Of a DNA stretch of 9,614 nt, positions 919-5,626 are shown one piece after another; position 1 is the first letter of the stretch, and each line of letters starts with the position of its first letter. Origin of the DNA: a bacterium (GTDB lineage Bacteria > ARS69); NCBI GenBank assembly GCA_025774805.1, contig JALGZR010000124.1, forward strand, positions 1 through 9,614. Direction: 5' to 3'. The position numbers and the translations under genes were made by a program. Below the pieces are notes generated by a model. It saw only the letters and a program-made list of their open reading frames with translations. It was not told the DNA's origin and did no database searches.

Positions 919-2982
919 GTGCGGTTGTTTCCGGTTTCGCGCGCCACCGGTCGGGCGGTCGCGGCCGTCGTCGCTGCGATCGGGCTCGCCGCCGTGACCG
1001 ACTCCCCCGCCCGGGCGAATCGGGGCGTCTCCGACCTGAAAGAGATCGCCGAACTGGAGGATCTCCGCTCTCCGGGAGAGGGCATCCTGGCGGAGCGGCT
1101 CCGGGACCGCAACGCGGAGACCCGGGCGGCCGCCGCGCGCGCCCTCGGGCGGAACGGGCACGAGGACGCGGTCCCCTCACTTCTCGACGCGCTCCAGGAC
1201 TCGGAGCTGTCGGTCCGCCTCGAGGTGATCTTCGCGCTCGGTCAGATCGGAAGCGCCGAGGCCCGCGACCCGCTGAGACGCATCGCCGCCTCCAACGCCA
1301 CGGTGGAGGAGCGCGACGAGGCCCTTCTCGCGCTCGGGAAGCTCCGAGGAGAGGGCGCCGCCGAAGCGATCCTGCCGTTCCTCGCCGATCCGGTGGCCAC
1401 GATCCGGGCCGACGCGGCGATCGCCCTCGCGCGAACGGCGGACAGCGTGGCCGCGATCGACCTGAGAGCGCTCCTCACCGACGACGATCCGGCGGTGCGA
1501 TCCAGCGCGGCGTGGGCGGTCGGCCGCCTGAAGGTCCGGGATCTCGCGGAGGACCTTCGTGACCTCCTGGAGGATCCCGATCCGGACGTGAAGCTCGCGG
1601 CGACGAAGAGCGTCGGTCAGATCGAGGACGTCGAGGCGATCGAGGCTCTCTCCCGACTCGTTCAGGATTCCGACTGGCGGGTCCGGGCGAACGTCGCGTC
1701 GTCGCTGGGGGCGACGAAGAGCCCGGACGCGCTGCCGGGGATCGCGCGTCTCGCGCGGGACGAGAACGGAAACGTCCGGGCGTCGGCCGCGGCGGCGCTG
1801 GAGCACGTTCCCCCGCACGAGAAGAGGGACGAAGTGCTCGCCCTCCTCCGGAAGGACCCCGAGGCCCAGGTCGTCGCGGCGCTGATGCCCGCACTGGCGA
1901 TCGGCCTCGAGAACCGGGCGAACGCGCGGGAGGAGCACCGGACCGCCCTCGCCGATCTGCGCGGCGCGGTCGTGCGCGCGGCCTACGCCTCGCTCGCGGA
2001 GGCGGGGCGCCGCGTGGAGGGCGATCCGCCCCACGTGTGGCGGCACGAGGCGTGGACCTGGATGCGGGACCGCCTGGCGGCCGAGGAGACCCCGATCGCG
2101 GAGAAGATAGCCGCCGCCTACCATGCCGGCGCCTTCGGCAGCGCGGGCCCGAGGCCGGAGTTGATCGAGTCGCTCTCCGGAGTCCACTGGGCGGTCACGG
2201 CGGCGGCGTTGCAGGCGCTCTCCGAGATGACTCCGGCCGACACGGCCGATCTGCAGAGGCATCGGGAGGAGACTCCGAAGATCATCGAGAGCGTGTTGAC
2301 GAACGACCCGGCGGCGGGCGCGTCGGTAGACGTGCGCCTCTCCGCGGCGGAAGCGCTCGGATCGTTCGACGGTGAAGACGCGAAGCGGATCCTCCGGGGT
2401 CTCGCGGCGAGCGATCCCGATCATCGCGTCCGCACTCGGGCGGCGCGGTCGCTCGAGGAGCTCGGAGAGCCCCGGCCCGAAGTCGCTCCCCCCGGCCCCC
2501 GTCCCGGACCCGCCGAACCGCTCGAGGAGGTCTATCTCGGCGCGAGACCGGGCTCGCTCGTCGCCGCGATCTCGACGGCGAAAGGTGATCTCGTGATCGA
2601 GCTGCTCCACCGGGACGCCCCGCGCACGGTGCAGAACTTCGTCGCGCTGGCGAAGAGGGGCTTCTACGACGGTCTCACGTTCCACCGGGTCGTTCCGAAC
2701 TTCGTGGTCCAGGGGGGATGCCCCCTGGGGAACGGCTGGGGGAGCCCCGGGTACGAGATCCGCTGCGAGTACAACCGGCACCGGTTCGCGCGGGGAATGG
2801 TCGGCATGGCCCATGCAGGCAAGGACACGGGGGGGTGCCAATTCTTCATCACCCATTCGCGGCAGCCCCATCTCGACGGGCGCTACACGATCTTCGGCCG
2901 CGTGATCGAGGGCATGGACGTCGTAGACGCCATCCGGGTCGAGGACGAGATCGAGAGGATCACCGTACGCCGGAAGCGCTAG
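919..2982 (+). CDS. Exported HEAT-repeat protein with C-terminal cyclophilin (peptidyl-prolyl isomerase) domain
   Basis: A 687-residue fusion. Residues 1-34 form a signal peptide (basic start, hydrophobic about 13-27, likely cleavage after SPARA). About eight HEAT/PBS-lyase-like repeats of 29-32 residues follow between 55 and 300, each marked by an R..AA.ALG helix (near 69, 100, 131, 163, 194, 226, 255 and 287). A less regular helical region (300-465) comes next, then two more repeats (473 and 504) and a proline-rich linker (518-535). The cyclophilin domain (about 545-687) has [15 protein letters not shown] with catalytic Arg590, Phe595 and Gln598, then [20 protein letters not shown]. CypA Trp121 corresponds to His651, as in many bacterial cyclophilins. 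The family catalyses cis-trans isomerisation of X-Pro bonds; the repeats probably bind a protein partner. The GTG start is preceded by GGGGAGAG at 903-910, 8 bases away. All three cysteines (601, 616, 640) lie in the isomerase domain. The TAG stop lies inside a repeat shared with 3927-3969. Confidence 0.93.
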
Positions 2983-3017
2983 CCTGCATTTCTCACCAGC
3001 CTCTGCGGCGGCGGCTC
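2978..3017 (+). repeat. 3'-end repeat, copy A (inverted relative to copy B)
   Basis: This 40-base unit starts at the last codon and TAG stop of the HEAT-cyclophilin gene and ends in GCGGCGGCGGCTC. Its reverse complement matches 3927-3969: 38 of 40 bases are identical, with one 3-base insertion in the other copy. Homology ends sharply on the downstream side. The core, TAGCCTG-N5-CTCACCAG, recurs twice more in the window. The first 22 bases can also pair with copy C at 3027-3047. I do not recognise a named family. It may be a dispersed palindromic repeat that serves as a 3'-end or terminator structure. Confidence 0.7.
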
Positions 3018-3047
3018 TCGACGACTCTGGTGAGAAACTCAGGCCGG
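2979..3047. terminator. Possible bidirectional terminator hairpin between convergent genes
   Basis: Arms 2979-2999 and 3027-3047 are 21 bases long and 17 of 21 pair, including an uninterrupted 11-base match (TTTCTCACCAG at 2989-2999 with CTGGTGAGAAA at 3027-3037). The loop is 27 bases. The structure fills most of the 82-base gap between two converging genes, the usual place for a shared terminator. The T/A runs are on the outside of the stem in the wrong order for a classic U-tract, so a terminator role is an inference from position. Confidence 0.4.
3027..3047 (-). repeat. 3'-end repeat, copy C (short)
   Basis: Read on the minus strand this is CCGGCCTGAGTTTCTCACCAG without the GC-rich tail of copies A and B. 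It lies 17 bases after the stop of the receiver-STAS gene, in the same transcript-relative orientation as copy A has to its own gene. The TAG present in the other copies is CGG here, so the stop codon is not shared. CTCACCAG and GCCTG are intact and correctly spaced. Confidence 0.5.
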
Positions 3048-3064
3048 TGGAACGCGATCCCGGA

Positions 3065-3859
3065 CTATCCGGAGGTCGATCTCGTCTCCTGCGCCGAGCT
3101 CCGGGCGGTCTGCAGCGCGCTGGCGCGATCGGGGAGGATCGGGGCGTAGAGGTTCAGCTTCTCGAGGAGAAGCCGCGTGCCGATTCCCTTGCCCGGTGCG
3201 ACGATCACCAACCTCCCGTTCGCCTTCCGGAATCTCACCTCGAACTGCACGATCCGGTCTCCGACCGTCGAATCGACCTTGTTGACTTTCGACAGGTCGA
3301 GAATCAGAGGACGATTCCCCTCTCCCCCGGCGCTCACCAAAGCCCAGGTCAGGTCCCGGACGACGGGTCCGGCGATCTCGGACGACAGGGCGGTGACCAG
3401 GGGAATGCCGTGGGTATCGACCACGGAGAAGTTCATTCGATAGTCGCCGAGCAGCTTCGACACTTTGGCCAGGAGATTCGCGGGCTCGAACGGCTTCACC
3501 AGGTACTCGTCCACGCCCGCCTGGTGCGCGGCGGTGATGCTCTCCCGGTCGTTGCGCGAGGTGACCATCATGAGCGGGATGTGTCTCGTCGCGGGATCGC
3601 TCCTCAGGGTGCGCGCGACCTCCAGACCGTCCATCTTCGGCATCGAGATGTCGAGGAGCACGAGATCCGGCTTTTCCTCTCCCGTCCTTCTCACCGCCTC
3701 CACGCCGTCGGCGGCGGTGATGACCTCGTGCCCCTTCTCCTCGAACATCGCGGCCAGCATCTTGGAGATGAACTTCACGTCGTCGACGACAAGGATGCGC
3801 GCCATGGTGTCCGTCCCGGTTCCGGCCCCGGAGGGCGTCTCCTGGGTTGATGCGGTCAT
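3065..3859 (-). CDS. Response regulator receiver-STAS fusion protein
   Basis: A 264-residue cytoplasmic signalling protein. The CheY-like receiver (about 20-138) looks active: acidic pair Asp26/Asp27 in ILVVDDVKF, phosphoacceptor Asp70 in LVLLDISMPKMDG, Thr100 and Lys122 in VKPF. The C-terminal part (about 143-250) resembles a STAS domain: PLILDLSKVNKVDSTVGDRI, then RLVIVAPGKGIGTRLL. Thr198 sits where SpoIIAA-type anti-sigma antagonists carry the phosphorylated serine. STAS proteins of this type bind anti-sigma or switch kinases, so phosphorylation at Asp70 could control partner release; that is inference. There is no DNA-binding domain. The start at 3859 has AAGG four bases upstream and the first 18 codons keep the gene's GC3 bias. 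An internal ATG at 3805, just before the receiver, is an alternative start. The gene is 105 bases downstream of the DUF885 gene on the same strand. The cognate kinase is not in the window. Confidence 0.88.
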   Translation of the reverse strand: MTASTQETPSGAGTGTDTMARILVVDDVKFISKMLAAMFEEKGHEVITAADGVEAVRRTGEEKPDLVLLDISMPKMDGLEVARTLRSDPATRHIPLMMVTSRNDRESITAAHQAGVDEYLVKPFEPANLLAKVSKLLGDYRMNFSVVDTHGIPLVTALSSEIAGPVVRDLTWALVSAGGEGNRPLILDLSKVNKVDSTVGDRIVQFEVRFRKANGRLVIVAPGKGIGTRLLLEKLNLYAPILPDRASALQTARSSAQETRSTSG

Positions 3860-3926
3860 CTGGCCTTCGGCTCGGCTATCGGCCGAAACGAAGGAGAACT
3901 GAAGCGATGAAAGCGGGGGGCGCGGC

Positions 3927-3969
3927 GAGCCGCCGCCGCACCGGAGGCTGGTGAGACATGCCGGCTAGC
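3927..3969 (-). repeat. 3'-end repeat, copy B (inverted relative to copy A)
   Basis: A 43-base unit on the minus strand beginning at the last codon and TAG stop of the DUF885 gene. It matches copy A (2978-3017) at 38 of 40 bases plus a 3-base insertion (CGG). Unlike copy A it has no inverted partner of the CTGGTGAG core. Instead its GC-rich end runs into a compact hairpin on the minus strand, GCGGCG-GCT-CGCCGC, which lies at about 3920-3934 and is followed by a C-rich run and no clear U-tract. Confidence 0.7.
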
Positions 3970-5626
3970 TGGGATTCCCGGCCAGGATCCGATCCCGAAC
4001 GATCGGAATCGGAACCATGCCCCAGTAGAGGAACTCGTCGTGGAAGGCGCGGTCGGAGTAGCCGCTCCCCCGGGCCGCCCGGAGGTCGTCCCGGAGCTTC
4101 ACGAGCATCCGCTTCCCGAGGGTGTAGCGCACGGCGCCCGGATCGAAGGTGCCCCGCACCGCCTCGGTGCGTGCCGCCGCCTCGCTGAGGTCGGCCTCTC
4201 CCCGGAAGAGACGATGGGCCTCGTCGACCGTCATGCCGCGCGTGTGCATGCGGATGGCCGTGATGAGCCTCACGTTGCGCACGACCGCGCCCCGGAGCTG
4301 AAAGAGCCGCAGCGCGGGATCGCCGTCACCGTACCCCGCTTCCACCGTCATCTCCACGGCGTAGTCCGCCCACGCCTCGGCCGACGAAGAGGAACGAAAG
4401 GTCCGCACCACGCGCGACGGATTGCGCCGCAGGTGAAGGCCGTGCAGGAAATGGCCGGGCCAGACCCGATAGACGGCTTTCAGGATGAGCTCGGGGCGGC
4501 AGAACTCGCGCAGCCAGTCCTCGGCGGTGGACTCGTCCCACTCGGGTCGCGGCGGGGTGACGTAGAAGGTGCCGGGTTCCCTCTGGACGGTCAGCGCGCC
4601 GGGGCCGTCCAGCATGGAGAAGGCGAAGCTCCGATAGGGAGGGGTCTCGGCGACGTGACACTCGATCGAAGACGGGATCGACACGATCTCCCTCTGCGCG
4701 ACCCAGCGACGGAGATCCTCGAGAACGTCGCGGGCCGCGTCGACGAGACCCCGGGCCTCGGGAGCCTCGGTCGAGAGCCGGCGGATCAGATCCTTCGGCT
4801 CGGCGCGGGGATCGATCGCGCGCGCCGTCTCCCGGAGATCCCTCTGGTTGCGCTCCAGGTCTCGCTCGCCGATCTCCAGCAGGCGATCGGGATCGGTGTC
4901 GATCCCCTCGGCGGTCGCGAGCCTCTTTGCGAAGACCTCCGGACCCAGCGGAAAGACGTCGGGACGGGATTCGGCCAGCCGATCCTCCAGAAACGCGATG
5001 AACTCGCGTCCCGCCTCGGCGGCCTGTTGCCGGGCCTGGAGGAGAGCGCGTCGGAGCATGGCGTCGTCGCCGTGGGCGTCCGTCAGCGCGTCGCCGAGCT
5101 CGCCCTCGACGAAGAGGACGAAGCCGCGAACGAGCCGTCGGGCCGTAGACGTGATCGTCCGATCGAGTACGGGCTCGAGCTGGCTCCGGATCTGGTCGAG
5201 AGCGCGCGGAATCCCCTTTAGGTGCAGGCACAGGGCCGCGGCCCGGTCTCCGCGAGGCGCGTGGTCGCCGATCAGGTACCGGGTCAGGTCGATCTGGTCC
5301 AGCGCGACCAAGGGATTGCGACTCCAGAGCCGGAGATCGCGGATTCCGACCAGCTCCCGGCGACAGGCGGCCCGAAGCACTCTCCAGTCGAGCGTACGGT
5401 CCGGGTCGAGCGCCGCGGAATCGATCGAGTCCAGCTCCTCGAGAGCTCCCTCCAGCTCCTCCGCCCGACGGGCGATCCCGCCCTCACCGATGTCGGGCAG
5501 CCGACCGTCGTAGGCGTGCAGTCCGCCGAATCGGGCCTCCTCGGGATGGGCCTCGTAGTGAGCGTCGAGGATACGCTCGGCCAGCGCATCGAGGGATGCG
5601 CGGGCGGTGGCGGTCGAATCGGCCAT
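3965..5626 (-). CDS. DUF885 family protein with degenerate metal-binding motif
   Basis: A 553-residue protein with no signal peptide that matches the DUF885 family (predicted zinc-dependent peptidase-like, mostly helical). It opens with the typical ALAERILDAHYEAHPEEARFGG and has the middle signature PGTFYVTPP (351-359). Active family members carry HE(A/V)(Y/M)PGHH followed by an EGWA(L)Y helix. Here the first reads VYRVWPGHFLHG (385-396): His and Glu are replaced by Tyr386 and Arg387, while His392 is kept. The second is EAWADYAVE (Glu417), and the later His461 in RMHTRGMTVDEA is also kept. Loss of the HE pair suggests that it binds metal differently or is not a peptidase. ATG 5626 is preceded by GAGGAA, with 6 bases between. 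It lies between two signalling genes on the same strand (87 and 105 base gaps). Substrate unknown. The family call is firm; the function is not. Confidence 0.85.
   Translation of the reverse strand: MADSTATARASLDALAERILDAHYEAHPEEARFGGLHAYDGRLPDIGEGGIARRAEELEGALEELDSIDSAALDPDRTLDWRVLRAACRRELVGIRDLRLWSRNPLVALDQIDLTRYLIGDHAPRGDRAAALCLHLKGIPRALDQIRSQLEPVLDRTITSTARRLVRGFVLFVEGELGDALTDAHGDDAMLRRALLQARQQAAEAGREFIAFLEDRLAESRPDVFPLGPEVFAKRLATAEGIDTDPDRLLEIGERDLERNQRDLRETARAIDPRAEPKDLIRRLSTEAPEARGLVDAARDVLEDLRRWVAQREIVSIPSSIECHVAETPPYRSFAFSMLDGPGALTVQREPGTFYVTPPRPEWDESTAEDWLREFCRPELILKAVYRVWPGHFLHGLHLRRNPSRVVRTFRSSSSAEAWADYAVEMTVEAGYGDGDPALRLFQLRGAVVRNVRLITAIRMHTRGMTVDEAHRLFRGEADLSEAAARTEAVRGTFDPGAVRYTLGKRMLVKLRDDLRAARGSGYSDRAFHDEFLYWGMVPIPIVRDRILAGNPS

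Follow-up and report, generated by a model that had tools for sequence, protein, structure and literature searches.

Inverted repeats on two stop codons are probably decayed copies of a MITE family with IS1380-type ends and a CTAG target

In the window, by which we mean the whole stretch of 9,614 nucleotides analysed here, two inverted repeats bracket a receiver-STAS gene, and each of them begins on the stop codon of a neighbour gene. This arrangement raises the question of whether the repeats act as signals of these gene ends or came to lie there for another reason. We conclude, with a probability of about 0.88, that both repeats derive from a non-autonomous transposon family (MITE) with IS1380-type ends and a CTAG/YTAR target and have since decayed. 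The features of the locus are collected in Table 1.

Copy A (2978-3017, plus strand, GCTAGCCTGCATTTCTCACCAGCCTCTGCGGCGGCGGCTC) and copy B (3927-3969, minus strand, GCTAGCCGGCATGTCTCACCAGCCTCCGGTGCGGCGGCGGCTC) are identical at 38 of 40 positions with a single 3-base gap, and the pair ranks first in the inverted-repeat listing of the window (38 nt, 87% ungapped, spacing 916 nt). The earlier note had reported that each repeat starts at the TAG stop of a different neighbour gene, and this was confirmed: the TAG at 2980-2982 in copy A terminates the HEAT-cyclophilin gene (919-2982, plus), and the complement of TAG at 3965-3967 in copy B terminates the DUF885 gene (3965-5626, minus). Both copies point away from their own gene in the same sense. 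Overlooked at that stage was that copy A is itself a hairpin, with its right arm CTGGTGAGAAACTCAGG at 3027-3043; it folds as one hairpin on either strand (z about -3). Copy B folded no better than shuffled sequences (z 0.26), and no right end of copy B was found when it was sought by sequence and by alignment to the full element.

Table 1 Features of the repeat-bearing locus in the window.
Feature	Position	Strand	Description	Basis
HEAT-repeat / cyclophilin-type peptidyl-prolyl isomerase gene	919..2982	+	Ends in the CTAG of copy A	Pfam, homologs in four relatives
Copy A	2979..3047	+	Internally deleted 69 bp MITE	Sequence, alignment with full-length and short members, hairpin fold
Left target of copy A	2979-2982		CTAG; its TAG is the HEAT-cyclophilin stop
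Left terminal repeat of copy A	2983..3003	+	CCTGCATTTCTCACCAGCCTC	Matches the family end exactly
Right terminal repeat of copy A	3027..3043	-	Plus strand reads CTGGTGAGAAACTCAGG
Right target of copy A	3044-3047		Decayed, CCGG
Receiver-STAS gene	3065..3859	-	Between the copies, outside the element	Pfam, same orientation in element-free relatives
Copy B	3919..3968	-	One-ended remnant of the same MITE as copy A	Aligns with roughly 50 bp at the start of the full element
Target of copy B	3965-3968		CTAG; includes the DUF885 stop
DUF885 gene	3965..5626	-	Ends in the CTAG of copy B	Pfam, G003 homolog

The repeats recur throughout the genome, far above chance, as the earlier note had supposed for the pair. 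With up to one mismatch allowed, a search of the 5.10 Mb genome gave 294 matches to the core TCTCACCAGCCTC against 8 for the reversed control; the 20-base end CTAGCCTGCATNTCTCACCAG, with up to two mismatches, gave 290 against zero for its control. A census of 800 kb of genome stretches (about 16% of the genome) yielded 71 units, 31 two-ended and 40 single-ended, which extrapolates to about 450 elements in the genome. The two-ended units measured 55-98 bp or 181-182 bp, plus one of 208 bp, and copy A aligned with the short members. Intact copies of about 182 bp read CTAG-CCTGCATNTCTCACCAG...CTGGTGAGANATGCAGG-CTAG, with terminal inverted repeats of 21-25 bp at both ends of the element; they have no coding capacity and no transposase gene, and lie within the MITE size of under about 300 bp. 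Forty scored copies matched one full-length copy at 92-99%, full-length copies were 87-99% identical to the consensus, and the full element folded as one long hairpin (z -7.7). With its short terminal inverted repeats, non-coding interior, hundreds of copies, and deleted and one-ended derivatives, the family has the features of a MITE, and copies A and B are decayed members of this large MITE-like family. Copy number and anatomy bear out the suggestion that a dispersed, small palindromic element of this genome inserted at the stop codons.

Across 22 full-length copies, two-sided changes were found in 5 of 50 pairs, mostly in the terminal arms. Such covariation is expected of paired ends and is alone no argument for an RNA function. 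The arms of one element also change together (A1 columns 7/177 and neighbours), CCTGC going with GCAGG and CCCGC with GCGGG, which suggests subfamilies or arm-to-arm conversion.

The borders of the copies reveal the target. Most intact copies have CTAG, a palindrome, at both borders, and among the non-CTAG borders, TTAA/TTAA and TTAG/TTAG speak for a duplication of 4 bp; in several other non-CTAG copies the borders agree over TA only, for example TTAG/CTAG and CTAG/CTAA. The preferred target, present at both borders, is CTAG, more generally YTAR. Tandem copies (L005, L022) share a single CTAG, which fits CTAG being the target. Such tandems, another of which lies at L206 12452-12650, suggest insertion of the elements into one another's borders. 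A single short, near-perfect palindromic copy bordered by TTAG/CTAA was observed in a relative of another genus (G004:C85:3182-3237, L051).

In other bacteria, these ends and this target recur around complete IS1380-family transposase genes. In a Bryobacterales MAG, two copies of about 1.72 kb (L164/L173), 97% identical, carry an open IS1380-family transposase frame (PF13701, 492 codons) between the ends, bracketed by CCTGCATTTCTCACCA / CCCGCATTTCTCACCA and TGGTGAGATATCCGGG, whereas the window copies encode nothing. One of these copies is bordered CTAG/CTAG and the other CTAA/CTAA, both 4-bp duplications, and a more distant IS1380 element is bordered TTAG/TTAG. Full IS1380-family elements in the Bryobacterales and other MAGs share with the family described here the ends CCYGSATWTCTCACCA and the 4-bp YTAR borders, and differ from the window copies in having a transposase. 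Judged by its ends and target, the family is probably tied to IS1380-type transposases, and we infer that an enzyme of this type moved the window's element. In this genome, PF13701 is represented by a fragment only, and no matching autonomous element is present in the MAG. The fragment, the sole IS1380-type trace in the genome, is a 131-aa C-terminal piece of a distant subgroup at L162 1501-1839 (G000:C17:1747-2085); it is about 30% identical to the transposases with matching ends, and its own locus lacks the ends.

Two other mobilizing systems have to be weighed against an IS1380-type enzyme. REP/REPIN-type repeats mobilized by a Y1 (RAYT) transposase would likewise be dispersed, palindromic, high in copy number and mostly extragenic. 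However, no Y1 (Y1_Tnp, PF01797) gene over the cut-off was found in this genome; the two symmetric ends, the fixed CTAG border and a related IS with 4-bp duplications fit a DDE enzyme, and it is IS1380 elements that carry the ends. We regard this origin as extremely improbable. The second system is another CTAG/YTAR-targeting family, of IS5 or IS701 type. It finds a parallel in MITEPsy1, which is described with a 4 bp CTAG or YTAA target and a tentative link to the IS5-type ISPsy2 (PMC3189936), but neither a DDE_Tnp_1 (IS5/IS4-type, PF01609) nor a DDE_5 (IS701, PF13546) gene exceeded the cut-off in this genome, which was the scope of that search, and here again the ends lie on IS1380 elements. 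Mobilization by such a family is very unlikely.

The ends also reach well beyond this genome. Among the matches listed, the exact end was found in MAGs of Deltaproteobacteria, Candidatus Eisenbacteria, Gamma- and Alphaproteobacteria and Nitrospira, and in further MAGs labelled Verrucomicrobiia, Acidobacteria and Gemmatimonadetes; the plasmid records searched held zero copies. PF13701 exceeded the cut-off in 10 of 22 end-bearing genomes (taken from the matches listed) compared with 14 of 95 others (p = 0.003), an excess that may partly reflect genome size or genome choice. In the Deltaproteobacteria MAG K_DeepCast_65m_m2_035, very many VGTG contigs (L064-L158) stop within a copy of a related element whose ends lie about 165 bp apart. 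The assembly therefore appears to be broken up by the family.

Why copies of such a MITE lie on stop codons was addressed with its target sequence. CTAG is depleted about 12-fold in this genome (104 observed in 400 kb, about 1191 expected), and element ends make up 67 of the 200 CTAGs in 800 kb. With genes called by a home-made, simple codon-usage script, 27 of the 71 elements in the 800 kb sample coincided with the TAG stop of a gene directed towards the element, and none with the stop of a gene directed away from it; 27 of the 518 genes in the sample, about 5%, thus carry an element on their stop. Of the element-free CTAGs, 34 were stops, 45 were other extragenic sites and 42 fell within genes. 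With intragenic sites set aside, 40% of elements (27/67) and 43% of element-free CTAGs (34/79; p = 0.71) lay on stops; the element-free set may include some eroded elements. Because the two shares are equal, target choice alone explains the association with stops. Inside genes, elements were far scarcer than element-free CTAGs (4/71 vs 42/121, p = 1.5e-6). As CTAG is rare and often forms a TAG stop, and insertions in genes are selected out, the surviving copies often lie exactly on stops. No more than target choice and selection against damaging insertions is needed, and the look of a gene-end signal is only apparent.

These counts bear directly on the proposal that the repeats are a 3'-end element, retained at gene ends since the hairpin terminates or protects transcripts. 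The one-sided placement on stops and the strong fold of intact copies speak for it, as does a slightly higher frequency of convergent contexts than at CTAG controls (23/67 vs 17/75). However, the difference in convergent contexts lacks significance (p = 0.14), the stop share is the same as at element-free CTAG sites, the hairpin of copy B is gone, and the homologous genes of relatives end without any such element. No terminator-like site (GC stem plus T-run) was found at 2900-4050, no T-run follows either hairpin, and neither a promoter-like site nor an Rfam family was found for the repeats. A terminator or RNA-processing unit, as the earlier note had it, is unlikely. Of its expectation of genome-wide copies associated with stop codons, the hundreds of copies were found; the stop association did not go beyond that of element-free CTAGs.

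Relatives in which this locus is free of the element allow its history to be traced. Four relatives, all from the same family but each from a different genus, carry the HEAT-cyclophilin gene, and their cyclophilin homologs end at nearly the same residue. In three element-free relatives, 34, 6 and 22 bp separate this gene from the convergent receiver-type frame, compared with 82 bp in the window, where copy A makes up 65 bp of the interval. This frame was matched to receiver-STAS by tblastn in G004 and G001, and in G003 the contig stops too early beyond the cyclophilin gene for such a match. The G003 cyclophilin homolog ends in CTAG and the G003 DUF885 homolog, on a separate contig, in TTAG, both without the element, and the receiver-STAS gene follows the latter in the same orientation as here. 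Among these relatives, all of different genera, no exact element-free allele was seen. The same gene ends and orientation in element-free relatives indicate that both stops and the gene orientation predate the repeats, and the idea that the element supplied the stop codons finds no support. Positions 3860-3964 of the window hold copy B and its eroded interior upstream of the receiver-STAS gene, and the insertion of copy B may have altered the promoter of this gene.

The earlier note had also considered that the inverted pair lets the 0.9 kb segment with the receiver-STAS gene invert or move, in keeping with the inverted orientation and the 38/40 identity. Against this, the genes lie in the same order and direction in relatives that lack the element, and the identity between copies A and B is broken, the longest identical run being only 13-14 bases. 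Nor do A and B form a normal composite transposon, since copy B lacks one end. Inversion or movement of this segment can hardly be credited.

Returning to the MITE with IS1380-type ends, the following course of events would account for the locus. An IS1380-type transposase acting in trans would have cut at CCTGCAT...ATGCAGG and pasted the element into YTAR sites, duplicating four bases. At a stop codon, such an insertion would duplicate CTAG and leave the protein intact. Insertions within genes would have been purged by selection, leaving survivors often exactly on stop codons, and the transposase would later have been lost from this genome or be missing from this assembly.

The closest published analogue is MITEPsy1 of Pseudomonas syringae pv. 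phaseolicola, an element of about 100 bp with terminal inverted repeats (GGAAGGTCTGAAAAAGCC) and no transposase, present in six copies in one genome (PMC3189936). Its CTAG or YTAA target is duplicated as 4 nt, and it is thought to be mobilized in trans by a resident IS, tentatively the IS5-type ISPsy2 (PMC3189936). Small size, target and 4-nt duplication resemble the window family, which differs in having other terminal repeats, IS1380-type ends and hundreds of copies. For IS1247 and other known members of the IS1380 family, the duplications are given as 5 bp (PMC3281130). In a limited literature search, no description of an IS1380-derived MITE family was found, and queries on the end sequence, on IS701 with YTAR and on IS1380 with MITE and CTAG returned nothing direct. 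REP/REPIN and Correia (NEMIS) elements are small, palindromic, high-copy and largely extragenic as well. They differ from the window family in their ends and target, and no Y1 transposase is present here.

A wider interpretation, which we consider rather doubtful, is that the CTAG preference put the MITE on the stops of about 5% of genes, such that hundreds of genes would share a 3' flank that the host may partly exploit as an mRNA 3'-end structure, and that the ends in several phyla would reflect repeated horizontal spread of one IS1380 subgroup. The analysis also offers a plain account of how a transposable element can come to mimic a gene-end signal: in a GC-rich genome in which CTAG is so depleted, an element targeting CTAG/YTAR lands on TAG stops and leaves the protein unharmed. 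The null test used here, the stop share of element-free target sites, is applicable to other repeats claimed as 3'-end signals, and a small palindromic repeat family of several phyla is linked to IS1380-type ends.
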